From Beroe forskalii (taxonomy: Eukaryota > Ctenophora > Nuda > Beroida > Beroidae), in NCBI GenBank assembly GCA_011033025.1, contig WFMF01000029.1:496001-560000 (forward strand): a stretch of 64,000 nt of DNA, given 5' to 3'. Both the position numbers and the translations under genes were made by a program. Shown here one piece after another: positions 11,850 to 63,761 of this stretch. The notes below the pieces were generated by a model. The model was not told where the DNA came from. It saw only the letters and a program-made list of their open reading frames with translations, and did no database searches. Positions within the stretch are counted from its first letter, which is position 1, and the number at the start of each line of letters is the position of its first letter.

Positions 11850-13651
11850 TTAACTTCCGTTTTCTTCGGGTATCTGATCGATATCAATGGTAGTTGATGG
11901 TTTCGGATCTTTAATGTCATCATTTGGTTCATTGTCATAATTGATGGGTTTTCCTGGGGTAACTGAAAGTTGCGGCTTCCTCAACTTTTGGTTCACTGAT
12001 AACAATGATTGGGCAGTCATGAACTGCCCTGTTATTTTCAACAGTTCCCTCATTTACATTTTGAATGGTAACATCTCTAATATGATTGGTCCTATCATCG
12101 TGTTCGTCGATGTTACTCGCATCATCCATGTCTCTTTCACTATCTCCTTCACTCTCAAAAAGTTCATCACTGTCGATAATTCCATCATGTAGGAGGGTTC
12201 CATCAATATGATCAATGATCATTTCATGATCATCACCAAGGATGTTTCTGTTGCTGTGATCAATGATTTCATTATCGATGTTTGCATTGCTGTGATCAAT
12301 GATTTCCTCGGTTATGAAATTCACGTCACTATGATCAATGATTTGATGATTAAGGATGTTTGCATCACTATGTTCTATGATTTGATCATTATTGATACTT
12401 ACATCACAGTGATCATTGATTTGATCATTAAGGATGTTTGCATCACCATGATTGATGATTTGATCATTAAGGATGTTTGCATCACCATGATCGATGATTT
12501 GATCATTAAGGATGTTTGCATAACTGTTATCAATAATTTCTACATTGATTGTATTCACATTACAATGATCAATAATCTGATCACTGAAGATGTTTGCATA
12601 GCTTTGATCAATCATTTGATCATTATTGATATTTGCATCGCCATCATCAATGACTTCATCATTTCGGATGTTTGCTGTATCACGATGATCAACGATTTCA
12701 CTCAGGATGTTTGCATTACTGTGATCAATGATATGATCATGGAAGTTTGCATCGCTATGATCAATGGGTTCATCGTTATGGATGTTTGCATCACTTTGAT
12801 CAATCATTAATCGATCATCAAGGATATTAACATCACTATGATCAATCATTTCGTCGTGGATATCAGCATCAATATGGTCAATGATTTCATCATGGATGTT
12901 TGCATCACTATGACTATGATCAATGATAGGATTCAAGACAGTTTCCCGATATGGCCAATTATTTCATCATAAAGGATGTCCCCACCACTGTGATCAATGA
13001 TCAATTCGTGATCATTAAAGATTTTCCATAAATAATTTCATCGTCCATAAAATTTTCGGCATCTCAAAAGTTTCGTCAAATTGATCCTCCTCATCGTCGC
13101 TTTCACTCACGATCTCGCCATTAAATTTGCCCTGCCATTGGCTGATCTGGCTCCTCACAATCGAAAAACTCGAAATTTGAGTCGGCATGCAATTCTGACG
13201 TATCCCCAAAGCCCGAATCATCGAATTCTGTTCCGTTATTTCTCAAGTCCTCGCTTTTCAATATTGATGGTTGCAAATGCATAGATTCGGCCAGCGTCAC
13301 AATAACAGCTTCATGGTCAGTCATGTCCCTGTAAACTTCATTAACTTGACTGGTTGGCTCAAGATCCAACCAATGATGTGTTTGACAAGAACTGGTGTCA
13401 GATTGCGTATTAGCAACCTGATCAATTGCAGCGGATATCATTTCACTGATAATTTCTTCAGATATCCTAACTGCTTCACTTGCACTGACAACGCTTGATT
13501 CAGCCTCAGTTGAAGGCCCTGCTGAGTTGATTTCAGTAGCCTGGCCTGCCTCTTCAAAATGTAAACCCGACCCAATTTCCAAGGCAGCCATGCCCCTCAG
13601 GTATGAAACAGCATCGGTCAGCTCTTTCAAGGCATCCTCAAGTTTGTTCAT
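11850..13651 (-). pseudogene. Acidic protein with 13-aa tandem repeats, frame-broken
   Basis: Reading leftward from ATG at 13651, the first open frame (to about 13121) encodes an acidic protein starting MNKLEDALKELTDAVSYLRG, with no recognised domain. Near 13120-13135 a second frame takes over (GEIVSESDDEEDQFDETFE). Between about 13060 and 12940 at least two more frame changes occur before the long repeat frame (12936-11935). The repeat unit is 13 residues (39 bp), consensus like LNDQIIDHSDANI, with about 20 copies. A final change near 11950 leads to an ending DIDQIPEENGS. Each piece looks like real protein and consecutive pieces fit one another, so this looks like one gene interrupted by small indels. 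It is either decaying or carries assembly errors. The repeat block is also open on the + strand (12208-12810), which follows from its palindromic TGATCA content. Function unknown. Confidence 0.55.
12190..12935. repeat. 39-bp coding minisatellite rich in TGATCA
   Basis: About 20 imperfect copies of a 39-bp unit, for example from 'gatgtttgcatcaccatgat' to 'gatcattaag'. Most copies keep a length divisible by three, so the 13-aa repeat is preserved. Each copy contains near-palindromic TGATCA/ATGATCAT words, giving open frames on both strands. Confidence 0.85.
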
Positions 13652-33500: not shown

Positions 33501-36500
33501 GTTCAATAATTTCTTCTGAAGAACACTCTACACTGGGGAGCCCTACATTGTGTGAACATAATGACTCTAATTTAACTAGACTGAAAGTGGCATGTTATTT
33601 CACTGGAAGTGAAGTACAATACAAAGAGGAGTTGTATAAGGGCAGGGGTAAAGCAATTTATAGCGAACATTTTTGGAAAACTACAAAAAAGTGGCATTAT
33701 TTGCCTAAGTTTGTTTCATAAAATCATAAGTCTATCCCCCTAGATACAAGCTCAGAAATTGAGCATATTAGACTTAGATTTGATAAAAGTTTTCATGCCA
33801 TTTGCATACAAGGTCAAATAATATATTTTAAATGAATCATAAATCTTTCTTCGAAGCTGAAATTATTCCATAGATAATTTTGAATCTACTCACTGCGACC
33901 AAAGAAATTACATTCTCTTACATTTTATGCTTTAGAATTCAAGCTTGCGCACTCTACGAGTCGACACATCACTACATAAAGTTAAGAGTGACGTCATTAT
34001 CATGGTTGAAAAAGGAGCGTTTATGACATCATGCCGACTAGTTCACATGGCCAGCACAAAACAGCAGCAAAGCCCTCTGAAAGCCTTGCAAGTGCTGTGA
34101 TTCGTTACACGTATAATTAACTCTAATTTACTCTAAAAACAAAGCCACGCAACTAAAATCAGGAATTTACGAAAATTACAAATCTGGACAGGGTTTATTT
34201 ATTTTAATCAAATAACTTTGGAAGTGCACAAGAAATGTAATTATATTTGCGGGAGTTCAAATATTCTAGAACGGCAGGACAAACATCTCTAATTTAATTT
34301 CATTACATGACACAACAAGTGCATGAGAATTGCATGTCGTTTTAGAACTTCTCTTGAAACAGCTACATTCAGACTACCGACCAAAGGATGTGTTACACAC
34401 CTGTAGTGGGTTCGAAGAATGAGAATGACTTTGAAATTCCCAGTCGCGCGGCTCCATGCATGAACGTGTTATACTGTTAAATCAGTATCACATACATACA
34501 AATGTTCAAATGGCGATCGTGTGGAAACTTCAGGTGACGTACCTACGTTACACACTAAGATTCTGGAAGAAAATACAGAAGTGACAGGTACATTACTCAT
34601 AGAACTACATTTTGTAGCACCTATTTCTTCAGTCTATGACGTAACGCACTGAACAATCGGGTAACTTTACCGTTAGAGTTCCTCGTTAGTTCAGTACTGC
34701 CAGTTCACGTTACGTAATACGTAATATATTACATTATTCATCCCACATGAAGTGGAAATGTACGTAGGTTAGGTGATTTCATTTCTAACACGGGCGTGGA
34801 ACACATGACACACAAGCTAGATGGTGAAATAGGCAATAAATTACCTAAAACACATGAATCATGATGGAATGGGATTGATAAATTGCCTAAAGTAGGTAAT
34901 AAATAGGGCTGTTGAAGACGATCAAAGCATGAAAATAACAGCTACCAGACAAGCAAAATCGTGTCAATTATAGTCTCAACAAGTTACCTGAATTGTGAGG
35001 TCATGAGGGCACTGATCTGACTCATTCCCTCGGCTGCCGCCAGACCCAGTGTCTCTGTTCTCACAAGGGTCCGGGTTTGATCCGACTTAGCCGACAGGGG
35101 CGCGTCGTTAACTGACGAGTTCTGAAATGGAAGGCAAGGGTTATTAAACTGGACCACGTAACCAAAATAATAGGGCCAGGAAAAAATGGTTTCTATGATA
35201 CTTAATGGGGGACGGATCTGCAAGAGATACAAACAACCCGGCGTGCGAAGCGGGGTTAATCGGGGTCACGGAAAAATGGTCGAGAGAGGCGTCTTTATCA
35301 GAGCTTAGTATGATAAATTGTTGACAAATTGATGGTAAAATTCCAACCTTGTCAGGGCTCAAGACCATCTCCCCATCCTCGTTAGGTAGCCCTGCCAGGA
35401 ACCTCCCTCCGTTGTTACGACTCCTTCGTAAAGCATGCTGGTGTCTCGACTCGTGCAGATACTTCTGAAGTTATAAAATGTTAAATAAGTGTGTTCCATG
35501 TTCTAATATGTACATTCGTCTGATCTTCACAGTTTTAGTATTCATAAATTGTATAGTTTAAAATTTAATGGGTTATTCAAAATATCTAAATAGATTCAGA
35601 GTGTATGGATCAGCTATGAGTGGGTAGCCAGCATGAATCAATATAATCAACTCGACATTAAATCGAGATTGAGATAGAATTGAGATTAAATTGGATGAAT
35701 TATCGAGATAAAATCGAGATAAAATAGAGATTAAACAAAGATCAAATCGACGTCCAACCTGTCTGCTCTTGGGAATCTTGCCCTGGGCCTCTAACCGAGC
35801 TCTCTGCTGTCTCCTTTTCATTATCCGATGGTACTGCTTTGCGTTAACGTAGAGGGGCTCGTCTGAGTCCCCATTGCTCACTAACGTGTTCTGAGAGAGG
35901 GTGGGGTTAGAAATAGGGGGTTAGGATTGGGAGGGTTAGAATAAGGGGGATTATAAGTAGATGAGCTAGAAGGATTAGAATTTGAACTAAATTAAGTGTT
36001 TTTAAAGGTTTCAAGGCTTAGAATTAAACCTACAAAACACATGATAGAATTAGTGATTGTTAAAATATATGATGCCATGTTTGGTTCTGCTCCACTTTAA
36101 AAACATTTCCTTGCTCCGAATGTAATTGCATCCGCCTAAAGTGGCACATAGGTCGGTATAATCACAGGTCTAATCAAAGTCTGGAATTAGGTCAACTGAT
36201 GTCTGACGAATTTAATTTAGTCCGACTCCCATAATTGGATTAGCTTGGTAGAGTCTGGGTTCGTTTAAAATTCAAATGCGGATACCTGGTCTTTAACGTT
36301 AATGGCAGAATATTGAAATTGCTAGACTGCTTTGGAAATTGAATAAAATTTAGGTTTTTAGCTTCTATAATATCCAAAATAAACACTCCAAGGGGCAGAA
36401 TAAAGAGCACATAAAATTCTGTGGAGTTAAAGGGCAGCCAATTTTACAGGGGGGAACAAGTACATTGGGACAGTTTAATATTTCTTGAAGCCTTCCTAGA

Positions 36501-41840: not shown

Positions 41841-41974
41841 GTTAGCCAATCAGCGCGAGTTTCGACAATGTTCATTCCATGCTATTGTTCTTGTGCGTAT
41901 GCGAGCTGATTGTTCAACTGTGCAACTGCATGTGCTCATTGTGTTCGTAGTATGTCAGTATTGATGGCTCTTTG

Positions 41975-44730
41975 ACGCCTTAGACCTTCATCGACCCATT
42001 AATTCAGAAGGAAGAAAACATTAACGGGTCTCGATACCCCAAAATTTGAAATCCTCGTTCAAAATTACGTCAGGAATGGCGGTTTTTGGGATTCAATCGG
42101 CCATGTTTAGATTTGACCCCTGAGACCCTTATTGACCCCTTATTTCAGAGGGAAGGAAACTTTTTAGGGTCTCGAGACCTCGAAAATCGAAATCCTCGTT
42201 CAAAAGTACGTCAGGAATGGCGGTTTTTGGAATTCAATCGGCCATGTTTAGATTTGACCCCTGAGACCCTTATTGACCCCTTATTTCAGAGGGAAGGAAA
42301 CTTTTTAGGGTCTCGAGACCTCGAAAATCGAAATCCTCGTTCAAAAGTACGTCAGGAATGGCGGTTTTTGGGATTCAATCGGCCATGTTTAGATTTGACC
42401 CCTGAGACCCTTATTGACCCCTTATTTCAGAGGGAAGGAAACTTTTTAGGGTCTCGAGACCTCGAAAATTGAAATCCTCGTTCAAAATTACGTCAGGAAT
42501 GGCGGTTTTTGGGATTCAATCGGCCATGTTTAGATTTGACCCTTGAGACCCTTATTGACCCCTTATTTCAGAGGGAAGGAAACGTTTTAGGGTCTCGAGA
42601 CCTCGAAAATCGAAATCCTCGTTCAAAAATACGTTAGAAATGTTGGTTCGTGAGTGTCAACCGGATGAAATGAATTTTGACCCCTTATTTTCCAGAAAAG
42701 CCGCGCAGCGATCTTTTTATATGCAAAGTACACCATCCGCAGCATTCCAAAACAGCTCTGCAACTGTCTTGTCCGTGTGTGTACACACAAACGACGAAAT
42801 AGTCACGTGACTATAGTGTCTGTCTGTTTGTTCGCTGAGCCAAGCATTGTCCGTGTGTTTGTCACGGTTTGTCCGTTTGTTTGTCTGTACGGTTGTAATT
42901 GTGTTCGTTCGGTTGTATTTATCATTTTTTGGAGTTGGAAAGACATTTTTGGAGTTGAAAAGATTATTTTTCGAATTTTAAAAAATAAATTTTCAAAAAT
43001 TCAAAAATACAACCGAACGAACACAATTACAACCGTACAGACAAACAAACGGACAAACCGTGACAAACACACGGACAATGCGCGGCTCAGCGAACAAACA
43101 AACAGACACTATAGTCACGTGACAATTTCGTCGTTTGTGTGTATATACACGGACAAGACAGTTGCACAGCTGTTTTGAAATGCTGCGGATAGTGTACTTT
43201 GCATATAAAAAGATCGCTGCGCGGCTTTTTGGGAAATAAGGGGTCAAAATTCATTTCATCCGATTGACACTCACGAACCAACATTTCTAACGTATTTTTG
43301 AACGAGGATTTCGATTTTCGAGGTCCCGAGACCCTAAAAAGTTTCCTTCCCTCTGAAATAAGGGGTCAATAAGGGTCTCAGGGGTCAAATCTAAACATGA
43401 CCGATTGAATTCCAAAAACCGTCATTCCTAAGGTACTTTTGAACGAGGAATTCGATTTTCGAGGTCTCGAGACCCTAAAAGGTTTCCTTCCCTCTGAAAT
43501 AAGGGGTCAATAAGGGTCTCAGGGGTCAAATCTAAACATGACCGATTGAATCCCAAAAACCGCCATTCCTGACGTAATTTTGAACGAGGATTTCGATTTT
43601 TGGGGTCTCGAGACCCGAAAATGTTTCCTTCCCTCTGAAATAAGGGGTCAATAAGGGTCTCAGGGGTCAAATCTAAACATGACCGATTGAATTCCAAAAA
43701 CCGTCATTCCTAAGGAACTTTTGAACGAGGATTTCGATTTTCGAGGTCTCGAGACCCTAAAAAGTTTCCTTCCCTCTGAAATAAGGGGTCAATAAGGGTC
43801 TCAGGGGTCAAATCTAAACATGGCCGATTGAATTCCAAAAATCGTCATTCCTACCGTACTTTTGAACGAGGATTTCGATTTTTGGGGTCTCGAGACCCGA
43901 AAATGTTTCCTTCCCTCTGAAATAAGGGGTCTATAAGGGTCTCAGGGGTCAAATCTAAACATGGTCGATTGAATTCCAAGAACCGACATTCCTAACGTAC
44001 TTTTGAACGAGGATTTCGATTTTCGAGGTCTCGAGACCCTAAAAAGTTTCCTTCCCTCTGGAATAAGGGGTCAATAAGGGTCTCAGGGGTCAAATCTAAA
44101 CATGACCGATTGGATCCCAAAAACCGCCGTTCCTGACGTAATTTTGAACGAGGATTTCGATTTTTGGGGTCTCGAGACCCGAAAATGTTTCCTTCCCCCT
44201 GAAATAAGGGGTCTATAAGGGTCTCAGAAGTCAAATATAAACATGGCCGATTGAATTCCGAAAACCGTCATTCCTAACGTACTTTTGAACGAGGATTTCG
44301 ATTTTCGATGTCTCGATACCCTAAAAAGTTTCCTTCTCTCTGAAATAAGGGGTCATTAAGGGTCTCAGGGGTCAAATCTAAACATGGCCGATTGAATCCC
44401 AAAAACCGCCATTCCTGACGTAATTTTGAACGAGGAGTTCGATTTTTGGGGTCTTGAGACCCGAAAGTGTTTCTTTCCCTCTGAAATAAGGGGTCTATAA
44501 GGGTCTCATAAGTCAAATCTAAACATGGCCGATTGAATTCCAAAAACCGTCATTCCTAACGTGCTTTTCTAATGAAGATTGATCGATTTTCGGGGTTTCA
44601 AGACCCGAAAATGTTTTCTTCCCTCAGAAATAAGGGGTAAACAAGGGTCTAAGGGGTCAAATCTAGAAATTGCCTATTCAATCCCAAAAACTGCCATTCC
44701 TTTTGAAATAAGGGGTCGATAAGGCACACA
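41975..44730. mobile_element. Foldback element with arms of 141-bp tandem repeats
   Basis: The left arm (about 41975-42630) has about four and a half copies of an exact 141-bp unit ('ccatgtttagatttgacccc' at 42101, 42242, 42383 and 42524). The right arm (about 43300-44725) has about ten inverted copies. Inside them, unique arms 42630-42920 and 43006-43300 are inverted copies of roughly 95 percent identity. They enclose an 85-bp AT-rich loop (42921-43005). Each repeat contains the perfect palindrome GGTCTCGAGACC. Because 141 is 47 codons, long frames run through the repeats, but they are repeat products and not a transposase. The architecture matches foldback (FB/TU) transposons of insects and sea urchins; no autonomous gene is present. 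Confidence 0.85.
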
Positions 44731-44749: not shown

Positions 44750-45815
44750 CATACAGTTATATCATTGTTTTGCCAGGGTTCTATTGTTATTGCAAGGGTC
44801 ATTTTGTTATGCTAAGTGTTATTCTAAGGGTCCTACTGTTATTTTAAGGGTTCTATTGTTATTCTACGGGTCCTATTGTTATTCTAAGGGTCCTATTTTT
44901 ATTCTTAGGGTTATATTGTTATTCTAATGGTCCTAATGTTATTCTAAGGGTCCTACTGTTATTCTAAGGGTCCTAATGTTATTCTAAGGGTCCTACTGTT
45001 ATTCTAAGGGTTCTATTGTTATTCTAAGGGTCCTACTGTTATTCTAAAGGTTCTATTGTTATTCTAAGGGTCCTACTGTTATTCTAAGGGTTGTATTGCT
45101 ATTGTAAGGGTCCTACTGTTATTCTAAGGGTCCTATTGTTATTCTAAGGGTCCTATTGTTATTCTAAGGGTCCTTCTGTTATTCTAAAGGGTCTATTGTT
45201 ATTCTAAGGGTCCTACTGTTATTCTAAGGGTTGTATTGCTATTGTAAGGGTCCTACTGTTATTCTAAGGGTCCTAATGTTATTCTAAGGGTCCTACTGTT
45301 ATTCTAAGGGTTCTATTGTTATTCTAAGGGTCCTACTGTTATTCTAAGGGTCCTATTGTTATTCTAAGGGTCCTACTGTTATTCTAAGGGTTGTATTGTT
45401 ATTCTAAGGGTCTATTGTTATTCTAAGGGTCCTATTGTTATTCTAAGGGTCCTATTATTTATTCTAAAGGGTCCTTCTGTTATTCTAAAAGGGTCTATTG
45501 TTATTCTAAGGGTCCTACTGTTATTCTAAGGGTTGTATTGCTATTGTAAGGGTCCTACTGTTATTCTAAGGGTCCTATTGTTATTCTAAGGGTCCTATTG
45601 TTATTCTAAGGGTCCTTCTGTTATTCTAAAGGGTCTATTGTTATTCTAAGGGTCCTACTGTTATTCTAAGGGTTGTATTGCTATTGTAAGGGTCCTACTG
45701 TTATTCTAAGGGTCCTATTGTTATTCTAAGGGTCCTACTGTTATTCTAAGGGTCCTATTGTTATTCTAAGGGTCCTACTGTTATTCTAAAGGTTCTATTG
45801 TTATTCTAAGGGCCA
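44750..45815. repeat. 20-bp minisatellite, about 53 copies
   Basis: Unit ATTCTAAGGGTCCTATTGTT with variants at few positions (ACTG, TTCTATTG, TTGTATTGCT). Variant units recur in the same order: the pair 'ggttgtattgctattgtaag' plus 'ggtcctactg' appears near 45090, 45230, 45530 and 45675. This is evidence of higher-order duplication. It abuts the foldback element. Confidence 0.95.
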
Positions 45816-47686: not shown

Positions 47687-47834
47687 CTACCGTCCACTGC
47701 TTCCAGAAGTCCTGGGTCTGCAGTGGTTCTGATGTTCGGGCCAATCCCGGTCAATGCACTCCTTGCTGCAGTAGAGGGGCCTTGGCAGATCGGACACGGC
47801 CACGTCTTCTTCTGCTGGTGACACGTCGCACAGG
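47687..47834 (-). CDS. Terminal exon encoding the MYND zinc finger, one-base frame break
   Basis: The exon opens in phase with exon 51004-51141 (G/CC junction). It reads CATCHQQKKTWPCPIC in one frame and YCSKECIDRDWPEHQNHC, then TAG at 47687, in the next. The spacing C-x2-C-x8-C-x2-C-x5-C-x3-C-x7-H-x3-C is canonical MYND. MYND fingers bind proline-rich peptides (PxLxP-type) in other proteins. The exon has 148 bases where 149 are needed. A four-base homopolymer at 47776-47779 is the obvious site of loss. Confidence 0.85.
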
Positions 47835-50800
47835 CTGCGGGAGGAGAAGTGTTAGATTAGCCCTGACACTGACCTAATCAGGAAAGATATAGACTTTACA
47901 TTGACCAATCAGCACGCTATTATGGGATGAATTTCTATCATAAGACTTGTACACTCAAAGGGACAGCTTGGTTTAGCCCTAGAGGCCACAAATTCTATCC
48001 GAATGACCGAAAAATTGGTATGAGTGCTTCTTATGATAGTCCAAACAATGTTTGACTGAATTTGTGACTTCCGGGGAAAGTCAAATTTTCGACCATTTTT
48101 GACCATTTTGCCTTACTACTACGCTACTCTGCCTTATTTTTCAGGGTCTGATTTTTGATTTTAATTTATTATTTTTTAGGTAATCATTAATTTGATTACC
48201 TAACGGTCTGACATTACAGTATTTTTGTGTAATAAGACAAACTGGTCAATAATAGTTTAATAAGGACTTAGGAAGGCTATTTCGACCAATTTCTGAGGAA
48301 ATATGGCATTATCGAATGATATACTATCATAAGACTTGTACACTTAAAGGGACAGCTTGGTTTCGCCCTGGAAGCCACAAATTCTATCCCAATGACCTAA
48401 AAATTGGTATGCATGCTTCTTTTGATAGTCCAAACAATGTTTGACTGGATTTATGACTTGTGGAGAAAGTGAAATTTTCGGCCATTTTTGACCATTTTGC
48501 CTTACTATACATCAGTGTTTTTGGTCGATTTTGGCCATTTTTTGACATATCGATTGTTCAAGCATTTTTGAACAAACTGGTCAAGAATAGTTTAGTAATG
48601 ACTCAGGAAGGCTATTTTGACCATTTCCTGAGGAAATATGGCATTATGGGATGAATTACTATCATAAGACTTGTACACTCAAAGGGACAGCTTGGTTTTG
48701 CCCTAGAGGCCACAAATTCCATCCGAATGACCTAAAAATTGGTATGTGTGCTTCTTTTGATAGTCCAAACAATGTTTGACTGGATTTGTGACTTCCGGGA
48801 AAGTGAAATTTTCGGCCATTTTTGACCATTTTGCCTTACTATACATCAGTGTTTTTGGTCGATTTTGGCCATTTTTTGACATATCGATTGTTCAAGCATT
48901 TTTGAACAAACTGGTCAAGAATAGTTTAGTAATGACTCAGGAAGGCTATTTTGACCATTTCCTGAGGAAATATGGCATTATGGGATGAATTACTATCATA
49001 AGACTTGTACACTCAAAGGGACAGCTTGGTTTTGCCCTAGAGGCCACAAATTCCATCCGAATGACCTAAAAATTGGTATGTGTGCTTCTTTTGATAGTCC
49101 AAACAATTTTTGACTGGATTTATGACTTGCGGGGAAAGTCAAATTTTCGGCCATTTTTGACCATTTTGCCTTACTATACATCAGTGTTTTTGGTCGATTT
49201 TGGCCTTTTTTTGACATATCGATTGTTCAAGCATTTTTGAACAAACTGGTCAAGAATAGTTTAGTAATGACTCAGGAAGGCTATTTTGACCATTTCCTGA
49301 GGAAATATGGCATTATGGGATGAATTACTATCATAAGACTTGTACACTCAAAGGGACAGCTTGGTTTTGCCCTAGAGGCCACAAATTCCATCCGAATGAC
49401 CTAAAAATTGGTATGTGTGCTTCTTTTGATAGTCCAAACAATGTTTGACTGGATTTGTGACTTCCGGGGAAAGTGAAATTTTCGGCCATTTTTGACCATT
49501 TTGCCTTACTATACATCAGTGTTTTTGGTCGATTTTGGCCATTTTTTGACATATCGATTGTTCAAGCATTTTTCAACAAACTGGTCAAGAATAGTTTAGT
49601 AATGACTCAGGAAGGCTATTTTGACCATTTCCTGAGGAAATATGGCATTATGGGATGAATTACTATCATAAGACTTGTACACTCAAAGGGACAGCTTGGT
49701 TTTGCCCTAGAGGCCACAAATTCCATCCGAATGACCTAAAAATTGGTATGTGTGCTTCTTTTGATAGTCCAAACAATGTTTGACTGGATTTATGACTTGC
49801 GGAGAAAGTGAAATTTTCGGCCATTTTTGACCATTTTGCCTTACTATACATCAGTGTTTTTGGTCGATTTTGGCCTTTTTTTGACATATCGATTGTTCAA
49901 GCATTTTTGAACAAACTGGTCAAGAATAGTTTAGTAATGACTCAGGAAGGCTATTTTGACCATTTCCTGAGGAAATATGGCATTATGGGATGAATTACTA
50001 TCATAAGACTTGTACACTCAAAGGGACAGCTTGGTTTTGCCCTAGAGGCCACAAATTCCATCCGAATGACCGAAAAATTGGTATGTGTGCTTCTTTTGAT
50101 AGTCCAAACAATGTTTGACTGGATTTGTGACTTCGGGGAAAGTCAAATTTTCGGCCATTTTGACCATTTTGCCTTACTATACATCAGTGTTTTGGTCGAT
50201 TTTGGCCATTTTTGACTTATCGATTGTTTTTGACAATTTTTTGAACAAACTGGTCAAGAATAGTTTAGTAATGACTCAGGAAGGCTATTTTGACCATTTC
50301 CTGAGGAAATATGGCATTATGGGATGATTTACTATCATAAGACTTTTACACTCAAAGGGACAGCTTAGTTTTGCCCTAGAGGCCACAAATTCCATCCGAA
50401 TGACCTGAAAAATTGGTATCTGTGCTTCTTATGAAAGTCCAAACAATGTTTGACTGGATTTGTGACTTCCGGGGAAAGTCAAATTTTCGGCCATTTTTGA
50501 CCATTTTGCCTTACTATACATCAGTGTTTTTGGTCGATTTTGGCCATTTTTTGACATATCGATTGTTCAAGCATTTTTGAACAAACTGGTCAAGAATAGT
50601 TTAGTAATGACTCAGGAAGGCTATTTTGACCATTTCCTGAGGAAATATGGCATTATGGGATGAATTACTATCATAAGACTTGTACACTCAAAGGGACAGC
50701 TTGGTTTTGCCCTAGAGGCCACAAATTCCATCCGAATGACCTAAAAATTTGTATGTGTGCTTCTTTTGATAGTCCAAACAATGTTTGACTGGATTTGTGA

Positions 50801-53800
50801 CTTGACACTGACCAATCAGCACGAAAACTCGTGAACAAGTGTGTAGGATTTTCTGAATTTTGATCAGGGGGCTTTAAGGAAATAAGGAGGGGGTCCTCCG
50901 GATAAACTTACTATGATCATTTGGAAACATCAGGGGATTATAAAGATGGCAGAGGATATAAAAATAATAAAATTTCGATTTAAGTCTGGCCCCCAACAGG
51001 TACCTGCAAGCGAGTGTTTCCTCAGCTTCCATCCCTCGTCCTCTCCCATGGGGTGATCACTGATCTCTGGTAGGTTCTTGTACTCTGATGGGCTGGGAAC
51101 ACTCTCACGGCGTCCCAGAGCACCCCAGACTAGTTGCAGAGCTGAGGGAAAGGGAGGGTTACTTGGGAGGTGGTAACTCAATAAACATGGACCTCAGAGA
51201 GGAAAAAAAGCAACAATCATGCAACCACTCTAGACAGAACATTTAACAATGCTAATAAATGATTAATGATATCAGTTTTAATGAAATTTAACATTTAAAC
51301 TTAAAGAAACATAGAAAAGTTTGAAATCAAACATCGGAATCATTTCCTTAAACGTGGATCAAAATTTGTCAAAAGTTCAGAATATGGTATGCCACGAAAA
51401 ACACATTGCTTGATTGATTGGTTTTACGATGAAAGAAGTAAAATCTTTTGAAAATGATAATTTTTGAGATTTTCTCACTAGAACGTGTACTTACAACGTC
51501 TACGGAGCTCACTAGCCACTGAAAATTCATGTAAAGTCAGTTTACTGTAATGGAAAACTTAAATTTCGCTTCTCATTAAATCTCCATCCAATCGTCATAC
51601 TTCTTATATTCATATTGACTTATCGGAAGGGAAGATAGAATTCTCCGGTTTAACTTCAAATTCACGTGCAATTCTCATGGCATGATGACACCAAATCAAA
51701 CGAAAAAATTGTAAAAATTTGCATGCATGATGCATAATAAGATCGTTCATTTACATTGGATAAACAAAGAAATAGGAAAATCCGTATTCCTTGCTTTGAA
51801 TATCAGATTCTGAGATTAAGATGATAAAAACAGACAATAACACTGGTATGATACATTAGACAATAAATTATTGGTTTTAAAGGTTCAGAAAGTGTCCGAT
51901 ATAAACTACCGGACATCCTCAATATTATGGGAAGCCTTGAAATAATCCCAACAACAGGCAATCAATCAAAGCAAAATCATTTTTGGCAAGGGCCGATCAG
52001 TTTGCAGCACTTCTGTAATCTGTACTGTGGTTTGCAGATAAATATACTGTACATAGGCAGTATACCAAATTTGTTAATGAAAATCAAATTAGAATATGAA
52101 AACTAAAAAACCCCGGTTAAATGAAATCATTAAATCAAACCAAACGTCAATCAACAACGTTTTATCTCGGAAATAATCTGAAACTGGATGAACTTGGTTG
52201 CAGACTTAGGTACAAAATGTGAAGAAGATTATCAAAGTATACTAATAATCAATCTAAATGATATTTTACAATCTCCTCAATCATAACTTAATCATAACAA
52301 ATAACAAATAGCTCATTTCTCCATAACAAAATCATAAATGTTTAGTTGATGATTGTAGACTCATAGAATCAAACATAGATTTCTGATCTTTGTCCCTTCT
52401 GATCATTAACATGCAGAGTTTATAATTCTGAGATTTAGGGCTAAATCACGACTACAATCATTATTTGCTTGATGCACGAATTGAAATGTCCATACTTCCA
52501 GCAACATGATATGTTACACAAGTAACGCGAATACGGCAAAAGAGAACCATTCTGAAATTTCTAGTCCGCCCGGCACCATGCAAGAACATGCTATACGTAT
52601 GAGTATTAAATGAGTATCACGCACGTACTTATGGCGGTCATGTGGAAATTTCAGAATGCGTCCTCAGAAGTCAAAACTCGCATCTTAGTCACAACATAAT
52701 CAGATTCTATCAATCAGATAATACCATGTACCATGCACAATATAGTTAACCTGAAGGTCTTCTCTGTCCACTGCTTACTCCAGTGAACTCAGCGTCAGTA
52801 GTAGCGCCTTCGTTATAGTAGACGTTGCCTTCTCCAGACTTGGAATTAGTGGGGTTTGGGGTTCATGGAGGAAGTGCAATTAATTAAACTTAAATCAGTG
52901 GGATTTGGGGCTGAAATGAAAATAGGGGGGAGGAGAAAAGTGATTTTTTTCTTCGATACAAGAACAGGAAATTAAAGAATTAACAAAATCCACACAAGTA
53001 AAATGAAACATTGAAACTAACTTGTTATCTTCCTGTGAACCAGCTGCTTTTGTTACGTGGGACATTCTGACGGGCAGATCAACCTGAAAAGTTTAATTGA
53101 GTGATTGAATAGATTACCTGTTAAGGAAATTAACCATTTACTCATTTACAAAATCATTCTTGAAGAATATGTGGAATTTTGGTCATTCTTCTCAGCTCAA
53201 ATTCATCCCCTAGAGCTGCAGTGAGTTCCGATATCGGTGTCTGAAATTCCAATGTCGAGGTGCAGTGTGTGGGATGAAAATTATCGGACGAAATCGAGTA
53301 AATTTAGTCGCGTTAACAATCGGTAATATTTTGGCACATTTCCCAGAATGTCCTACAAATGCGTCACGCGCGGTAACAATTTGAGATTATTAACGCGCAG
53401 CACGCGCGTTGCAGCATGCCGATCGACTCGGGAATTTCAGACACCGATCTCAGAGGTGGTCACACCTCTGAGATCGTTTCCTCATCTCCACCGTCAATAA
53501 CAATACTCACGTTGACAGGTCTGTTGGTGTATTTGTAGTAACCTCCAAAGGCAGCTCCTACGAGCATGAAGGCCACTAGAATAGGAACCACAATGGCCAC
53601 TACGTTAGAGGATTTAGCTGCAGGGGATTCGGGATCGTTAGTTTCAAGGCTTCTACTTGGTTAAATTTAGTGGCCAAAAGTTTGTATGCCATTCAAGAAA
53701 TACCATATTTAACTAATACCATATTGATTTCACACCATAATTGATGGACACCAATCCACTCTGAAACATATACCGGTTTCCTGACTAAAACAATTCAATG

Positions 53801-55598
53801 TAACCCAGGTAAAAACAACACGGCGCCGTAAACCATAACGTAGATTATAATTTATACATAGGTTTTGTGTCCTCTGAGAAAGAAGAGAGTTTTGCTGTCT
53901 TGCCGTTGAATGATAGCTGCAGATTACTGTTTGCAGCGTCTTGGTTGATTGTCGAAACAGCGGCCAATGTATCTGAGAAGGGGGGAATTCATCATGCAGA
54001 TGTTTTTGAATATATGAAATGATTCATTCGATACTCTCAAATTCATAGAAGTTTGATCGATTGTACCATATTGAGAACCACTAAATCATAAAAAGCCTGC
54101 AGGTTTCGGGTACCTTCTCTGGGTAGCAGCACTAGTAGAAACAGTGGTCTCCACAACTATGGATCCTGCGTAGTGGTCGATATCGTCGAAATAGTAGTCT
54201 GGGTACTTCTCTTGTAGGTAGGTCTTCAGGTATGAGGAGAAACCTGCATGATTAGATAAACGGCTGTATGACATGTTTCGAAAATGTAGCTTTAGAAGCA
54301 TCAAAGAGAAAAATATTTTTAAGTTTTAAAGACTGCGATCCGATGTACATTGTTAGTTGTTCATTAATTTACTCTAAAAAGCACGTTTGCTGTGACCTGT
54401 GACCCATTGAGACCAATGAATGCTCTATGTTTAAGTATGTACCTTCTGAGTCCTGGTCGACGAAAGAAGAGTAATCTCCGTCAAAGTTGAATACGACTCT
54501 CTGGAGGGGACTGTCTGGAGACTGCTCAGTGATCTCAACTTCCAAATCATATGAATCGTATGCCTGATATAGCAGAGAGATGATAATTCCTTATTCTCAT
54601 CTGAGAACAATATAGTTGAGTAGTTGAGATGTCCCAGAAACTCAAAAAATACCGAGACAATAAAGCTGAATCCCGAAAGAACTTAAATACTTAAATAATT
54701 AGAATGGCAAATACATTTTGATTGTTCAAGACTCCGGAGAATATGTCCAAGTCTTTACCCACCGGGTCTGAGGTGTCTAGGCTGAGGGTCAGTACATAGG
54801 ATCCCTTCCTTGAGAGCCTAACGTCAGTTAGATTCCCGTAGCCACTGATGAACTTGACCTGGAGAGGGTGTTAACAGATTAGCAAGTTCAACATCGAATA
54901 ATAGTGCCGACAGGAATTTATAGCAAAATTTAACAGCACGAGAAACAATCTCTGCCTTTGCCCTTCTCTTTGAAGTTTCCAAGCTCCATTTGAGCTTATC
55001 CTCCCCATTAGACACCTTATCGACCCCAAACTAAAACTGAAGCATTCATCAGACTATGGGTCATTGGATTGGGGTTTAGGCTGCCTTTTAAGTTTCACCC
55101 ACCTCATTGGTTCCGAGGAGTCTGCCATGTTCAGGTCCTGACTTGACAGCGACCTTAGCACCCCACGCACTATCTCCAACTCCGAGTAGAGGCACTACTT
55201 CACCATCCTTAGTAACCACTTTAGAGTGAACCTCCATGTTGGAGAGCATCTCAACTTTCTGTGGGGCAGGGGGGGGGGAGTTTAAGAAATTCTCAATGGT
55301 ACAAATCTGGATTATGTGCCAGAATAAGTTAGGCACCGTACGTTTGACGGAAAATTCATTAAGGAACTTCTTTTGATAGCTCAAGATAGCTGCATCAATC
55401 CAACAATTTGAGGAAAAATTTAAAAGCAAAGATTTTCATGAAATCTCACATCGGGCTTGTCCAGGAGGTTGAAAGCACTGGGAACCAGGATCTTGACGAC
55501 TCCCTGAGACTTGGCTTTAGCTTTTGTCTGCTTCTCCTGCTTCTGTGCGAATGTCTGACCGTCAGTCACCCTGCCAGCGTCTTCTTCGCTCAGTTTCT
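47687..55598 (-). CDS. Single-pass membrane protein, SEA-like ectodomain and cytoplasmic MYND finger (5' partial)
   Basis: Eleven exons: 55450-55598, 55103-55258, 54763-54858, 54443-54563, 54133-54243 (alternative end 54114), 53858-53972, 53511-53652, 53022-53083, 52751-52838, 51004-51141 and 47687-47834. Phases agree except at 53022/52838 and inside the last exon; exon 5 needs the weak donor at 54133. Exons 2-3 encode a beta-rich module (PLLGV, HGRLLGT, then GSYVLTL) resembling fibrocystin/PKHD1-type repeats. Exons 5-6 resemble a SEA domain (F-x-x-YL start, GSIVVE core). Exon 7 has a transmembrane helix (VVAIVVPILVAFMLVGAAF) followed by YYKYTNR, placing the rest in the cytoplasm. The last exon is a MYND zinc finger with all eight ligands: C-x2-C-x8-C-x2-C, YC-x3-C, DWPEH, x3-C. 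One base is missing between its halves, in the run at 47776-47779. The 5' end lies beyond the satellite arrays or the window. Function unknown; adhesion or signalling is inference. Confidence 0.75.
47902..50823. repeat. 335-bp satellite array 1, flanked by 15-bp direct repeats
   Basis: About 8.6 tandem copies of a 335-bp unit (landmarks: 'actatcataagacttgtaca', 'gggacagcttggtt', 'aattttcggccatttttgac', 'ggtcgattttggcc', 'ctgaggaaatatggcattat'). The leftmost copies are divergent, one with an insertion around 48130-48230; the inner copies are nearly identical. TGACCAATCAGCACG occurs at both edges (47902-47916 and 50809-50823). The array fills the last intron of the MYND gene. Open frames in it recur at exact 335-bp intervals and are repeat products. 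Confidence 0.95.
50930..51003 (-). other. Intron DNA after exon 51004-51141
   Basis: A consensus donor (CAG/GTACCT) follows the exon. The downstream reading is AT-rich intron leading to satellite array 1. Confidence 0.6.
53230..53451. mobile_element. MITE-like insertion with about 21-bp inverted ends
   Basis: CGGTGTCTGAAATTCC (53235-53250) is matched by its exact reverse complement at 53431-53446, with near matches extending further out. The roughly 220-bp interior is noncoding and contains CGCGCG words. It sits in the intron after the transmembrane exon. Confidence 0.55.
53445..53476. other. Perfect 14-bp-stem hairpin
   Basis: CGATCTCAGAGGTG, loop GTCA, exact reverse complement. It overlaps the right end of the MITE-like insertion, 35 bp from the transmembrane exon. 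Confidence 0.9.
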
Positions 55599-55635: not shown

Positions 55636-58600
55636 GGAATCGATGAATTACTATCATAAGACTTGCACACTCAAAGGGACAGCTTGGTTTTGCCCTAGAG
55701 GACACAAATTCCATCCGAATGACCGAAAAATTGGTATGTGTGCTTCTTATGATAGTCCAAACAATGTTTGACTGGATTTGTGACTTCCGGGGAAAGTCAA
55801 ATTTTCGGCCATTTTTGACCATTTTGCCTTACTATACATCAGTGTTTTTGGTCGATTTTGGCAATTTTTTGACTTATCGATTGTTCAAGCAATTTTGATT
55901 AAACTGGTCAATAATAGTTAAATGAGGACTTAGGAAGGCTATTTCGACCAATTTTTGAGGAAATATGGCATTATGGGATGAATTACTACCATAAGACTTG
56001 TACACTCAAAGGTACAGCTTGGTTTTGCCCAAGCCAAAAATTCCATCCGAATGACCGAAAAATTGGTATGTGTGCTTCTTATGATAGTCCAAACAATGTT
56101 TGACTGGATTTATGACTTGCAGAGAAAGTGAAATTTTCGGCCATTTTTGACCATTTTGCCTTACTATACATCAGTGTTTTTGGTCGATTTTGGCAATTTT
56201 TTGACTTATCGATTGTTCAAGCATTTTTGAAAAAGCTGGTCAAAAATAGTTTAATAAGGACTTAGGAAGGCTATTTTGACCATTTCCTGAGGAAATATGG
56301 CATTATGGGATGAATTACTATCATAAGACTTGTACACTAATTTAAGGGACAGCTTGGTCTTGCCCTAGAGGCCACAAATTCCATCCAAATGACCTAAAAA
56401 TTGGTATCTGTGCTTCTTATGATAGTCCAAACAATGTTTGACTGGATTTGTGACTTCCGGGGAAAGTCAAATTTTCGGCCATTTTTGACCATTTTGCCTT
56501 ACTATACATCAGTGTTTTTGGTCAATTTTGGCCATTCTTTGACTTATCGATTGTTCAAGCATTTTTGAACAAACTAGTCAAGAATAGTTTAGTAATGACT
56601 CAGGAAGGCCATTTTGACCATTTTCTGAGGAAATATGGCATAATGGGATGAATTACTATCATAAGACTTGTACACTCAAAGGGACAGCTTGGTTTCGCCC
56701 TGGAAGCCACAAATTCTATCCTAATAACCTAAAAATTGGTATGCGTGCTCCTTTTGATAGTCCAAACAATGTTTGACTGGATTTGTGACTTCCGGGGAAA
56801 GTCAAATTTTCGGCCATTTTTGACCATTTTGCCTTACTATACATCAGTGTTTTTGGTCGATTTTGGCAATTTTTTGACTTATCGATTGTTCAAGCATTTT
56901 TGAATAAACTGGTCAATAATAGTTTAATAAGGACTTAGGAAGGCTATTTCGACCAATTTCTGAGGAAATATGGCATTATGGGATGAATTACTATCATAAG
57001 ACTTGTACACTAAAAGGGACAGCTTGGTTTTGCCCTAGAGGCCACAAATTCCATCCAAATGATCTAAAAATTGGTATCTGTGCTTCTTATGATAGTCCAA
57101 ACAATGTTTGACTGGATTTGTGACTTCCGGGGAAAGTCAAATTTTCGGCCATTTTTGACCATTTTGCCTTACTATACATCAGTGTTTTTGGTCGATTTTG
57201 GCCATTCTTTGACTTATCGATTGTTCAAGCATTTTTGAACAAACTAGTCAAGAATAGTTTAGTAATGAATCAGGAAGGCTATTTTGACCATTTTCTGATG
57301 AGATATGGCATTATGGGATGAATTACTATCATAAGACTTGTACACTCAAAGGGACAGCTTGGTTTCGCCCTGGAAGCCACAAATTCTATCCGAATAACTT
57401 AAAAATTGGTATGCGTGCTCCTTTTGATAGTCCAAACAATGTTTGACTGGATTCATGACTTGCGGAGAAAGTGAAATTTTCGGCCATTTTTGACGATTTT
57501 GCCTTATTATACATCAGTGTTTTTGGTCGATTTTGGCAATTTTTTGACTTATCGATTGTTCAAGCATTTTATAATAAACTGGTCAAGAATAGTTTAATAA
57601 GGACTTAGGATGGCTATTTTGACCATTTCCTGAGGAAATATGGCATTATGGAATGAATTACTATCATAAGACTTGTACACTAAAAGGGACAGCTTGGTTT
57701 TGCCCTAGAGGCCACAAATTCCATCCAAATGACCTAAAAATTGGTATCTGTGCTTCTTATGATAGTCCAAACAATGTTTGACTGGATTTGTGACTTCCGG
57801 GGAAAGTCAAATTTTCGGCCATTTTTGACCATTTTGCCTTACTATACATCAGTGTTTTTGGTCGATTTTGGCCATTCTTTGACTTATCGATTGTTCAAGC
57901 ATTTTTGAACAAACTAGTCAAGAATAGTTTAGTAATGAATCAGGAAGGCTATTTTGACCATTTTCTGAGGAAATATGGCATTATGGGATGAATTACTATC
58001 ATAAGACTTGTACACTCAAAGGGACAGCTTGGTTTCGCCCTGGAAGCCACAAATTCTATCCGAATAACTTAAAAATTGGTATGCGTGCTCCTTTTGATAG
58101 TCCAAACAATGTTTGACTGGATTTGTGATTTCCGGGGAAAGTCAAATCTTCGGCCATTTTTGACCATTTTGCCTTACTATACATCAGTGTTTTTGGTCGA
58201 TTTTGGCAATTTTTGACTTATCGATTGTTCAAGCATTTTTGAACAAACTGGTCAATAATAGTTTAATAAGGACTTAGGAAGGCTATTTTGACCAATTTCT
58301 GAGGAAATATGGCATTATGGGATGAATTACTATCATAAGACTTGTACACTCAAAGGGACAGCTTGGTTTTGCCCTAGAGGCCACAAATTCCATCCAAATG
58401 ACCTAAAAATTGGTATCTGTGCTTCTTATGATAGTCCAAACAATGTTTGACTGGATTTGTGAATTGTGACTTCCGGGGAAAGTCAAATTTTCGGCCATTT
58501 TGACCATTTTGCCTTACTATACATCAGTGTTTTGGTCGATTTTGGCCATTCTTTTGACTTATCGATTGTTCAAGCATTTTTGAACAAACTAGTCAAGAAT

Positions 58601-58965
58601 AGTTTAGTAATGAATCAGGAAGGCTATTTTGACCATTTTCTGAGGAAATATGGCATTATGGGATGAATTACTATCATAAGACTTGTACACTCAAAGGGAC
58701 AGCTTGGTTTCGCCCTGGAAGCCACAAATTCTATCCGAATAACTTAAAAATTGGTATGCGTGCTCCTTTTGATAGTCCAAACAATGTTTGACTGGATTTA
58801 TGACTTGCGGAGAAAGTGAAATTTTCGGCCATTTTTGACCATTTTGCCTTATTATGCATCAGTGTTTTTGGTCGATTTTGGCAATTTTTTGACTTATCGA
58901 TTGTTCAAGCATTTTTGAATAAACTGGTCAAAAATAGTTTAATAAGGACTTAGGATGGCTATTTT
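55636..58965. repeat. 335-bp satellite array 2 with dimeric higher-order structure
   Basis: About ten copies of the same 335-bp family. From about 56320 onward two unit types alternate. Type A has 'ccctagaggcc', 'tccatccaaatgac', 'ggtatctgtgcttcttatg' and 'gccattctttgac'. Type B has 'ccctggaagcc', 'tctatccgaataac', 'ggtatgcgtgctccttttg' and 'ggcaattttttgac'. This makes a roughly 670-bp A-B dimer repeated four times. The array ends abruptly where the retroelement begins. Confidence 0.95.
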
Positions 58966-59201
58966 TGTCATACCCTAACCCCGTTCACCCTTCTAGGATG
59001 TGAATGACTCCCTTGTTTTCATCATACCTTCTTGGATAACTTCAATCATCAACACCCTCTACTCCTGGCTCCAACAATACGGTACACACACTACACCGCG
59101 TATTTGTGAACTAATATCAGTATAAGTTGATATAGTGGTTCTTTAACCTTATTTGATCACACCACCTCATTTCATATCACAGACTAATTTGAGATTTAGC
59201 T

Positions 59202-61706
59202 ATGGCAAAACTTCGAGGACCAACTTGGGATCAAAACTATGAACGCTGGAAGAAGCTGCTACAGTCGTGGATGAGACTTCAAGGTAAAGATATCAGTGAT
59301 TCTGAGTTGGTTGCTGCTGTGACTTTAGGATTGAGTGAATCTAAGAAACTCCCATCTGGGGAAAATGTGGTTGATGCCATCTTGGATTTGGATGATGAGG
59401 AATTGTATCCTTCGAAAAGACCCACGGAAGAAGAGTTGGTAACTATGGAGGAGTTTACTCTGAAAGATGGCAAAAGATATGTGCCAGGTCTGAGTGCTAT
59501 AATCAAAACTCTGAAAGCTAAGTACTCAGAAACAGAAGATGTCATATTATTCAATGCATACGAGGAATTTGACTCCCTGAAAAAAGAGAGCAGTGAATCA
59601 ATGAAAGAATATGTTCTGAAGTTTGAGAGATTGTATAAAAAGCTAGAGAAGAAGGATACTAAGTTACCAGACATCATGCTAGCATACAAGCTCATGAAAG
59701 GGGCTAACCTTGGGAAAGATGAGGTTATTGCTAAAGTTGGAATGGGCGGTGATACGATGACTTACACCAAGATGAAGTCAATATTACTAAGCATGAATGA
59801 GGGAGTTGTTCAGGTTGGAACAAACAGCAAAGTGTCACCTAAAATCAAGTTGGTAAAAGAAGAGCCAGCAGATGTCTTATATCAGGATGGATACTGGGAG
59901 AGTGGAGAGCAAGGAAACCATCCTGGTCGATCTACAGATACTCTATATGAAGAGGAAATGGATGAACAGTCATACCACGATGCAGAAGAGTTTCAGCCAG
60001 TCCTCTACCAGAAATTCAGGAAGGGCTACCGAGGTGGCTCTATTCCTTATCAAAGAGGAGGGCAAAGTAGTAGCTCAAGTAGCAACTCTCGTCCAAGTTC
60101 TAGGCAAAGTAGTGACTCAAACCATTCTCAGTACAGCTCAGGTAGCGACCACTCTCAAAAATCTGCAGGTTCCAGAAGACCCAACAACCCAAGTACTTGT
60201 AAAATCTGTAGGTCAATCTTCCACTGGGCTAATCAGTGTCCACATAGGAATGAGATTAGAAACAATGAGTCGAGAAGTAGCAAACCAGAAACGATACTGA
60301 AACTAGATTGTATGTTCATTGATGATGAAGAGCTGGACCACCTTACATCAGAATCTAAGAATGTTGCCCTTCTTGATTGTGGAGCAGCCAAAACTGTTGT
60401 GGGACGACAATGGTTTGAATCTTTTGAAGACAGTCTGGATGAGAATAAAAAGTCTCAACTGAAGGAAGAGCAAAGGGTGGCTCACTTCAAGTTCGGAGAT
60501 GGCAAACCAGTTACCTCAGAGATAGTGAAAGTGATCCCCATCAAGATGTGTGGAAAAGACATGGTCATTAAAGCTAACCTCGTCGAAAACAACGTTCCCT
60601 TACTCATATCCAATGAATCTCTGAAATCTGCTAAAGCTAAGCTGAACTTCGTACAGGACACTATCGAAGTTGGAGGGAACATCCAGAAACTCATCTCTAC
60701 CTCATCAGGTCACTACGGGATTCCATTGAGCAATAAAGGAGGGAGTCAGGAAGACAGCGAAGACAGTGAACACGAGGTGTTTATGTCTAAGGATGAAGAC
60801 CCCAAGAAACTAGCCTTGCATATCCACAGATACTTCGCTCATGCTTCACCCCAGAAATTGAAACAATTCGTTTCAAACACCAACCACCATAGAAGAGATG
60901 ACATCTGCAAAGCATTGGATGAGATGGATTGTGACATCTGTAAGAAACACAAGAAGGAAGCTCCCAAGCCAAAAACTGGGATTCCTATGGCAGATAGATT
61001 CAACCAGACTGTGGCTTTAGATCTCAAATTCCTTGAAGGCGATGAGATCATATTACATGCAATTGATCTGTTGACCAGATTTTCAACAGCCACAATCATA
61101 GAGAACAAAACTGGTGAAGCTGTTGTGTCTGAATTTCTGAAGAATTGGATAGCTATATTTGGAGCTCCTGAGAATACATTGGTTGACAATGGTAAGGAGT
61201 TCTGCAACAAGGACTTCTTGGACATGTGCCAAAACCTAAACATCAACATGAAGACTACTGCTGCCTTCTCGCCATTCAGCAATGGTGTTGTAGAACGTCA
61301 CAATGGCATACTTGCTGAAATGACTCTCAAGATTAAGGAAGAGACTCAGTGCTCATCAGCCACTGCACTGTGTTGGGCACTCCAAGCAAAGAACAGCATG
61401 AGCAATGTATATGGATTCTCTCCAATGCAGCTCGTGTTGGGATACAACCCAAAGATACCAGGATTGGACGATTCTAAAATCAACCTGGGTCAGATTGAGA
61501 GAAGAACATCCAGTGAGATTGTTGCTTCGAACTTAAACGCCATGCATGAGGCTAAAGCTTTCTTGGAGGCACAGGCATCAGATAGATTAGCCAGAGCACT
61601 CAAAGGACGTGTTTATCAAGCCTATGAATGTCAGTACTTTGCAGTGACAGAGTATATTACCGAACAGGCATTAGAGACACAACTTGGCATGGTCCTGGAA
61701 TCGTGA
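59202..61706 (+). pseudogene. Copia-type gag-protease-integrase ORF (frame-shifted and truncated)
   Basis: An 834-codon frame. The N-terminal third is a gag-like helical region. A CCHC zinc knuckle (CKICRSIFHWANQC) follows near residue 335. The protease active-site region is LLDCGAAKTVVG. The integrase has an H-x4-H and CDIC zinc-binding pair, then catalytic D in VALDLKF, D in LVDNGKEF and E in NGVVERHNG. The last two are 35 residues apart (DD35E). The frame shifts near 61628: the natural continuation (WHGPGIVIGQYKK, VRVHPSKL) is in the next frame. Nothing corresponding to reverse transcriptase follows, so the element cannot move by itself. Confidence 0.9.
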
Positions 61707-62290: not shown

Positions 62291-63761
62291 GTCTAAAATT
62301 GGTATGCGTGCTTCTTTTGATAGTCCAAACAATGTTTGACTGGATTTGTGACTTTCGGGGAAAGTGAAATTTTCGGCCATTTTGACCATTTTGCCTTACT
62401 ATACATCAGTGTTTTTGGTCGATTTTGGCAAATTTTTGACTTATCGATTGTTCAACCATTTTTGAACAAGCTGGTCAAGAATAGTTTAATAAGGACTTAG
62501 GAAGGCTATTTTGACCATTTCCTGAGGAAATATGGCATTATGGGATGAATTACTATCATAAGACTTGTACATTCAAAGGGACAGCTTGATTTTGCCCTAG
62601 AGGCCCCAAATTCCATCCGAATGACCTAAAAATTGGTATGCGTGCTTCTTTTGATAGTCCAAACAATGTTTGACTGGATTTGTGACTTTCGGGGAAAGTG
62701 AAATTTTCGGCCATTTTTGGCCATTTTGCCTTACTATACATCAGTGTTTTTGGTCGATTTTGGCCATTTTTTGACTTATCGATTGTTCAACCATTTTTGA
62801 ACAAGCTGGTCAAGAATAGTTTAATAAGGACTTAGGAAGGCTATTTTGACCATTTCCTGAGGAAATATGGCATTATGGGATGAATTACTATCATAAGACT
62901 TGTACACTCAAAGGGACAGCTTGGTTTTGCCCTAGAGGCCCCAAATTCCATCCGAATGACCTAAAAATTGGTATGCGTGCTTCTTTTGATAGTCCAAACA
63001 ATGTTTGACTGGATTTGTGACTTTCGGGGAAAGTGAAATTTTCGGCCATTTTTGGCCATTTTGCCTTACTATACATCAGTGTTTTTGGTCGATTTTGGCC
63101 ATTTTTTGACTTATCGATTGTTCAACCATTTTTGATCAAGCTGGTCAAGGATAGTTTAATAAGGACTTAGGAAGGCTATTTTGACCATTTCCTGAGGAAA
63201 TATGGCATTATGGGATGAATTACTATCATAAGACTTGTACACTCAAAGGGACAGCTTGGTTTTGCCCTAGAGGCCCCAAATTCCATCCGAATGACCTAAA
63301 AATTGGTATGCGTGCTTCTTTTGATAGTCCAAACAATGTTTGACTGGATTTGTGACTTTCGGGGAAAGTGAAATTTTCGGCCATTTTTGGCCATTTTGCC
63401 TTACTATACATCAGTGTTTTTGGTCGATTTTGGCCATTTTTGACTTATCGATTGTTCAACCATTTTTGAACAAGCTGGTCAAGAATAGTTTAATAAGGAC
63501 TTAGGAAGGCTATTTTGACCATTTCCTGAGGAAATATGGCATTATGGGATGAATTACTATCATAAGACTTGTACACTCAAAGGGACAGCTTGATTTTGCC
63601 CTAGAGGCCCCAAATTCCATCCGAATGACCTAAAAATTGGTATGCGTGCTTCTTTTGATAGTCCAAACAATGTTTGACTGGATTTGTGACTCTCGGGGTA
63701 AGTCAAATTTTCGGCCATTTTTGGCCATTTTGCCTTACTATACATCAGTGTTTTTGGTCGA
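62291..63761. repeat. 335-bp satellite array 3, highly homogeneous
   Basis: About 4.4 copies of the same family, but a distinct subtype: 'gaggccccaaattcc', 'ggtatgcgtgcttcttttg', 'gtgactttcggggaaag' and 'gttcaaccattt'. Copies differ at only a few positions, suggesting recent amplification. It ends at 'ggtcg' followed by unique DNA. Confidence 0.95.

Follow-up and report, generated by a model that had tools for sequence, protein, structure and literature searches.

Human fibrocystin (PKHD1, polyductin) has a SEA domain in front of the membrane, and its tail contains a nuclear signal. The protein is reportedly cleaved by a convertase, by gamma-secretase and, inside the SEA domain, by ADAM proteases, and the freed tail goes to the nucleus or to mitochondria (PMC13424714). 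This tail of 192 residues is described as unique among the proteins of vertebrates and contains signals for cilia, nucleus and mitochondria; no MYND finger is mentioned in the accessible part of the same source. The SEA region before the membrane, the Notch-like processing and the long cytoplasmic tail (PMC13424714) make fibrocystin comparable to a gene of the ctenophore Beroe forskalii considered here. The window, that is, the whole stretch of DNA that was analysed, has 64,000 nucleotides (positions 496,001 to 560,000 of the forward strand of contig WFMF01000029.1, below C347), and its minus strand holds the 3' end, and only the 3' end, of a fibrocystin-L (PKHD1L1)-type gene. The predicted anatomy, a type I membrane receptor with a MYND zinc finger in its tail, is very probable. 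On balance, we favor reading the window as the 3' end of such a receptor, with tail release as the working model; the mechanism itself is offered tentatively.

Exon structure of the window gene

Exon borders were picked at AG/GT sites of the minus strand, from 55598 to 47687. The resulting chain consists of 12 exons, and the phases agree at nine of the 11 junctions. In the following list, identities are given to the relative on contig C636 described in the next section.

E1, 55450-55598, minus strand: start of the membrane-proximal beta-rich domain, the most upstream exon of the gene found on the contig; 24/46 aligned residues identical
E2, 55103-55258, minus strand: beta-rich domain; 34/52 identical
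E3, 54763-54858, minus strand: beta-rich domain; 22/30 identical
E4, 54443-54563, minus strand: first part of the SEA-like module; 25/40 identical; no Pfam SEA match
E5, 54114-54243, minus strand: SEA-like module with YYFDDIDHYAGSIVVETTVST, a possible G/S self-cleavage motif; 28/40 identical
E6, 53858-53972, minus strand: last part of the SEA-like module, out of phase with E5 in this assembly; 16/37 identical
E7, 53511-53652, minus strand: transmembrane helix by hydropathy; 16/35 identical
E8, 53022-53083, minus strand: cytoplasmic tail, matched to E8 in the relative solely by order and phase
E9, 52751-52838, minus strand: cytoplasmic tail by borders and frame, out of phase with E8 in this assembly
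E10, 51495-51518, minus strand: 24-base tail exon of the model only, placed solely by splice borders and phase; the relative shows no counterpart
E11, 51004-51141, minus strand: tail exon by borders and frame, donor at 51003; the relative shows no separate counterpart
E12, 47687-47834, minus strand: MYND-finger exon with the stop codon, finger halves in different frames; 14/18 and 16/31 identical

The initial annotation had joined these exons by splice phase, and the chain stands except at two junctions considered below. The single transmembrane helix claimed there corresponds to one strongly hydrophobic stretch in E7 (Kyte-Doolittle 2.87 over 19 residues). About 114 residues separate this helix from the finger in the window model, in agreement with the proposed tail of roughly 100 residues. 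The splice junction looked for between 51004 and 47834 is present as well: GT and AG are in place, the phases match, and reading continues into CATC...CPIC, which is the first half of the MYND finger.

A relative in the same genome

Searches of the same genome with the tail and ectodomain exons of the window yielded one other locus, C636:665133-668437. The reverse query from this locus returned the same two loci and three weak finger-end matches elsewhere (E 0.001 to 0.23). The exons of the relative, of which the last 13 were spliced, lie at C636:663785-668536. They keep the order E1-E9 and are followed by a complete finger. Exons E4, E5, E6, E7, E8, E9 and the MYND exon (C636:668382-668536) form one open frame of 292 residues down to the stop codon, with GT/AG borders and all six junctions in phase, including the one that matches window E5/E6. 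The donor of E2 in the relative is GC. The linker to the finger has 94 residues, compared to the longer one in the window model, which contains two tail exons (E10, E11) beyond those of the relative; the match of the tail exons is not one to one. Thus the matching exon order and the complete finger of the relative make the window chain more than a chance arrangement.

One could suppose that the MYND exon is part of an adjacent gene and simply lies nearby. In the window, 3.2 kb with a satellite array separate it from the tail exons. However, in the relative the gap between the tail exon and the finger is 469 bp, the junction is in phase, and the gap contains no AATAAA or ATTAAA, while AATAAA occurs after the finger, at 669110. 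The linkage is kept in both loci, and a chance MYND match within 1 kb on the same strand would be expected about 8e-5 times (35 matches in 216 Mb). Because of the arrangement in the relative, a separate gene was rejected as very improbable. The link between the transmembrane helix and the MYND finger, as originally proposed, is supported chiefly by this locus.

The MYND finger

The finger of the relative is complete (PF01753, 4.3e-7), with all eight C4-C2HC zinc ligands in order. In the window, joining the finger's two halves gives the same eight ligands in order. Within E12, the second half (YCSKEC...DWPEHQNHC) is read in another frame than the CATC...CPIC half, and the possibility that the literal window encodes a whole MYND finger was rejected because the finger is split over two frames. 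The C-terminal finger of the initial annotation is thus complete in the relative and split in the window, which the annotation did not notice. The Pfam search suggested there also gave a divided result: the second half of the window finger alone matches PF01753 with E 7.4e-6, but the window is absent from the genome-wide search with the same profile (35 matches, E up to 0.001). The two copies agree exactly in the string KKTWPCPIC and in the RPR that follows the last cysteine.

The closest solved MYND sequences are those of DEAF-1 (E 0.0016) and CBFA2T1, or ETO (E 0.0078), and both share the eight zinc ligands and their order. The MYND zinc finger is a module usual in nuclear regulators, and DEAF-1 and CBFA2T1 are soluble proteins. 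Both are described as transcriptional regulators, and MYND fingers as peptide-binding (PMC3555993).

Assignment to the fibrocystin-L family

The exons upstream of the relative on the same strand, with translations joined by eye, match G8 (PF10162, 1.1e-22), the right-handed beta helix (PF13229, 1.3e-9) and the CEMIP beta-helix (PF24606, 5.8e-8). Further upstream, single open frames contain TIG (PF01833, 7.1e-7) and a CEMIP beta-helix (PF24606, 2.9e-27); a second open frame matches TIG (PF01833) at 0.057, and a second G8 match lies at C636:652377. Hydropathy supports a transmembrane helix near the C-terminus in E7 of both copies, the scan covering E7. On the basis of TIG, G8 and the CEMIP beta-helix upstream on the same strand, the relative is, by its predicted domains, a fibrocystin-L (PKHD1L1)-type receptor. 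This family, with its upstream domains, had been missed by the initial annotation. From order and strand, we infer a single transcript that joins the upstream domains to the 3' exons. A search of PDB sequences with the G8/beta-helix stretch of the relative gave three weak matches only: sorting nexin-9 twice (E 0.086, 0.097) and cell surface hyaluronidase 8c6i (E 0.19).

PKHD1L1 (fibrocystin-L) shares with the relative TIG, two G8 regions, the CEMIP-type beta-helix and a transmembrane helix near the C-terminus. To our knowledge, the human PKHD1L1 sequence lacks the extra SEA-like GSIVV module before the membrane. The domain layout of fibrocystin and fibrocystin-L, as described, matches the upstream order in the relative, whereas the tail of human fibrocystin-L has 8-9 residues (PMC13424714), compared to the 94-residue linker and the MYND finger here.

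With E up to 0.001 as the limit, the genome has eight G8 matches, all on C636 and none at the window gene. The G8 cluster on C636 comprises the relative and at least two more copies. In copy A, the part that matches the relative spans C636:499.4-508.7 kb (minus strand); identity over its long blocks is 82-84 percent, counting introns, and the similarity breaks off before E1 is reached. Copy B lies in C636 721-738 kb. It is truncated by the end of the contig, at 738221, inside the second exon ahead of E1. The matched pieces of this region vary in their identity to the relative between 65 and 98.5 percent, a pattern that local gene conversion could produce. A similarity in several frames between C347:577.7-578.0 kb and C636:645.7-646.0 kb proved to be a DNA-level repeat (89 percent over 330 bases) and was rejected as a domain exon.

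Another origin of the window copy is conceivable: it may belong, as the 3' end, to a third gene, copy B, of which C636 carries the 5' part up to the contig end, the contigs having been separated or misjoined at the satellite. We give this possibility a substantial weight, although somewhat less than an even one. Not only does C636 end inside an exon two exons before E1, with the window starting at E1 beside the satellite, but the divergence from the relative is similar on both sides (17/37 identical residues in the last exon of copy B and 24/46 in window E1). However, C347 continues for more than 300 kb past the window, the last two exons before E1 have no significant match near the window, and an earlier exon of copy B is much closer to the relative (81 percent).

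The SEA-like region

The best-conserved part of the segment encoded by E4-E6 is YYFDD[IV]DHY[AS]GSIVVETTVST, present in both copies; GSIVVETTVST is identical in the window and the relative. The self-cleavage motif of SEA domains is given as GSVVV or GSIVA, and furin cuts other SEA domains in the same loop (PMC6954182). As here, a GSVVV/GSIVA-type motif or a furin site in the SEA loop is described for the SEA-type modules of MUC1, GPR110/GPR116 and Notch2/GPR126; however, these modules have no detectable sequence match to E4-E6. We know of no MYND tail in any of these proteins. A second segment resembling a cleavage module, a furin-like RRKKR/S site followed by a beta-like stretch in the relative, was seen only in the C636 copies. 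The only PDB match of this stretch, a capsid protein fusion (E 0.028), was taken as chance.

Evidence against the favored reading, and constraint on the two copies

Several observations weigh against the favored reading of a receptor with tail release. The gene is known here from genomic sequence alone. The window copy has three frame breaks, namely at the out-of-phase junctions E5/E6 and E8/E9 and inside E12, and no upstream exons of the gene were found in the 48 kb examined on C347. The relative has one such break: with the chosen borders, its E3 reaches a stop just before its donor and is out of phase with E4; an earlier GT exists within this exon. There is no Pfam match to SEA (PF01390) in the window copy or the relative, and a two-sequence profile of the region found no SEA match among PDB sequences; genome-wide, with E allowed up to 10, PF01390 has three weak matches, all below the cut-off and away from these loci. 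Because all profile searches failed, the label of E4-E6 was kept at SEA-like: of the initial assignment to SEA, the motif-level resemblance (GSIVVE in both copies) stands, and the candidate module is defined by the GSIVV motif and a plausible layout, its SEA identity being unproven. Finally, of the five corepressor-contact residues of DEAF-1 named in the accessible part of PMC3555993, four differ here on our reading of the alignment. Since only the tryptophan is kept, binding of SMRT/NCoR is not predicted.

The frame breaks are what would be seen if the window copy were a decayed 3' fragment, a pseudogene broken off by the satellites and a retroelement, with only the C636 gene working. That E1 adjoins a satellite array and that no upstream exon was found fit this as well. 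However, among 329 aligned codons of the window and the relative there are 99 differences in the first, 67 in the second and 193 in the third positions (359 in total). With the tail exons E8-E11 left out, the rate of nonsynonymous substitutions (dN) is 0.32 and that of synonymous ones (dS), which is saturated, 1.88, the ratio being about 0.17. In the MYND exon (49 codons, the two frames handled apart) the values are 0.22 and 1.30, and the ratio is also about 0.17. The changes are concentrated at third positions, and the ratio suggests that both copies have been mostly under protein-level constraint since their separation, although two sequences cannot assign it to each branch.

Base errors in the assembly may be another source of frame breaks. 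In the one gene that was read through, which gives no rate, an HSP70 gene at C419:53975-55322, the frame changes inside a conserved exon, and this is likely a base error; stops are listed in two other HSP70 matches, C894 and C581. Because the conserved C419 gene also changes frame, base errors are a plausible source of the breaks in the window, which could be assembly errors. We regard a pseudogene as rather unlikely, and retain the reading of the window as the 3' end of a receptor gene.

Repeats and other features of the window

Satellite arrays, identified by repeat analysis, flank and interrupt the gene.

48237-50804, no strand assigned: 335-bp satellite array inside the E11/E12 intron
55642-58965: 335-bp satellite array directly upstream of E1
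62295-63761: 335-bp satellite array beyond the retroelement

The three arrays represent one satellite, most units being about 91-94 percent alike, and a single partial unit lies at 47919-48118. A Copia-type retroelement frame of 837 amino acids (59193-61706, plus strand) is situated between two of the arrays; it matches rve (2.3e-9) and, below the cut-off of that profile, Retrotran_gag_2 (1.6e-5). At 41971-44701, a 141-bp repeat makes up two oppositely oriented arrays, which form inverted arms of 728 nucleotides (94 percent complementary), and the 527 nucleotides between the arms hold most of a 250-nucleotide inverted repeat. They are followed at 44817-45812 by a minisatellite with about 50 copies of a 20-bp unit. 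An exon of an NF-YA gene lies at 35576-35920 on the minus strand (CBFB_NFYA, 4.4e-14). An open frame of 342 residues at 11935-12963, also on the minus strand, has no Pfam match at E up to 0.01; a large part of it, at 12257-12920, consists of 39-bp repeats encoding units of the IIDHSDANI type.

A possible mechanism and its implications

The most economical reading, which we infer by analogy, is a receptor that releases its MYND-bearing tail. The ectodomain of the relative (TIG, G8 and the CEMIP-type beta-helix) would end in the furin-like RRKKR/S segment. In both copies this part would be followed by the beta-rich domain and the SEA-like GSIVV module just outside the membrane, and then by the helix, the linker and the MYND finger. 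The ectodomain may be cut in or near the SEA-like modules and yet remain attached, as proposed by analogy with fibrocystin. A ligand or a pull would then strip the ectodomain, the remaining stub would be cut within the membrane, and the MYND finger of the freed tail would bind proline-rich partners in the cytosol or the nucleus.

Alternatively, the tail may never be released, the MYND finger being a fixed membrane scaffold that recruits proline-rich partners. We give this somewhat less than an even probability. MYND fingers are described to bind peptides (PMC3555993), and cleavage here is predicted by sequence alone. However, the exon with the furin-like RRKKR/S site in the relative and the GSIVV motif in both copies point to cleavage, and fibrocystin is reported to be cleaved (PMC13424714). 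A stronger form of the tail-release model would have a fibrocystin-L-type lineage with a MYND effector, in which two successive SEA-like cleavages, one of the furin type and one self-cleaving, and an intramembrane cut send a transcription-cofactor-binding finger from the surface or the cilium to the nucleus, as in Notch. This form we consider doubtful.

A full-text search of the openly licensed literature found, judging by titles and beginnings of abstracts, no fibrocystin, PKHD1L1, G8, SEA-transmembrane or gamma-secretase protein with MYND. This agrees with the initial statement that no SEA-transmembrane-MYND protein is known; databases may well contain unnamed entries of this kind.

The function of the tails in the fibrocystin family is still debated. 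A relative with a recognisable peptide-binding finger at the end of its tail would demonstrate that a dedicated effector can be part of this receptor family, and the MYND tail would make the proposed cut-and-release signalling directly testable.

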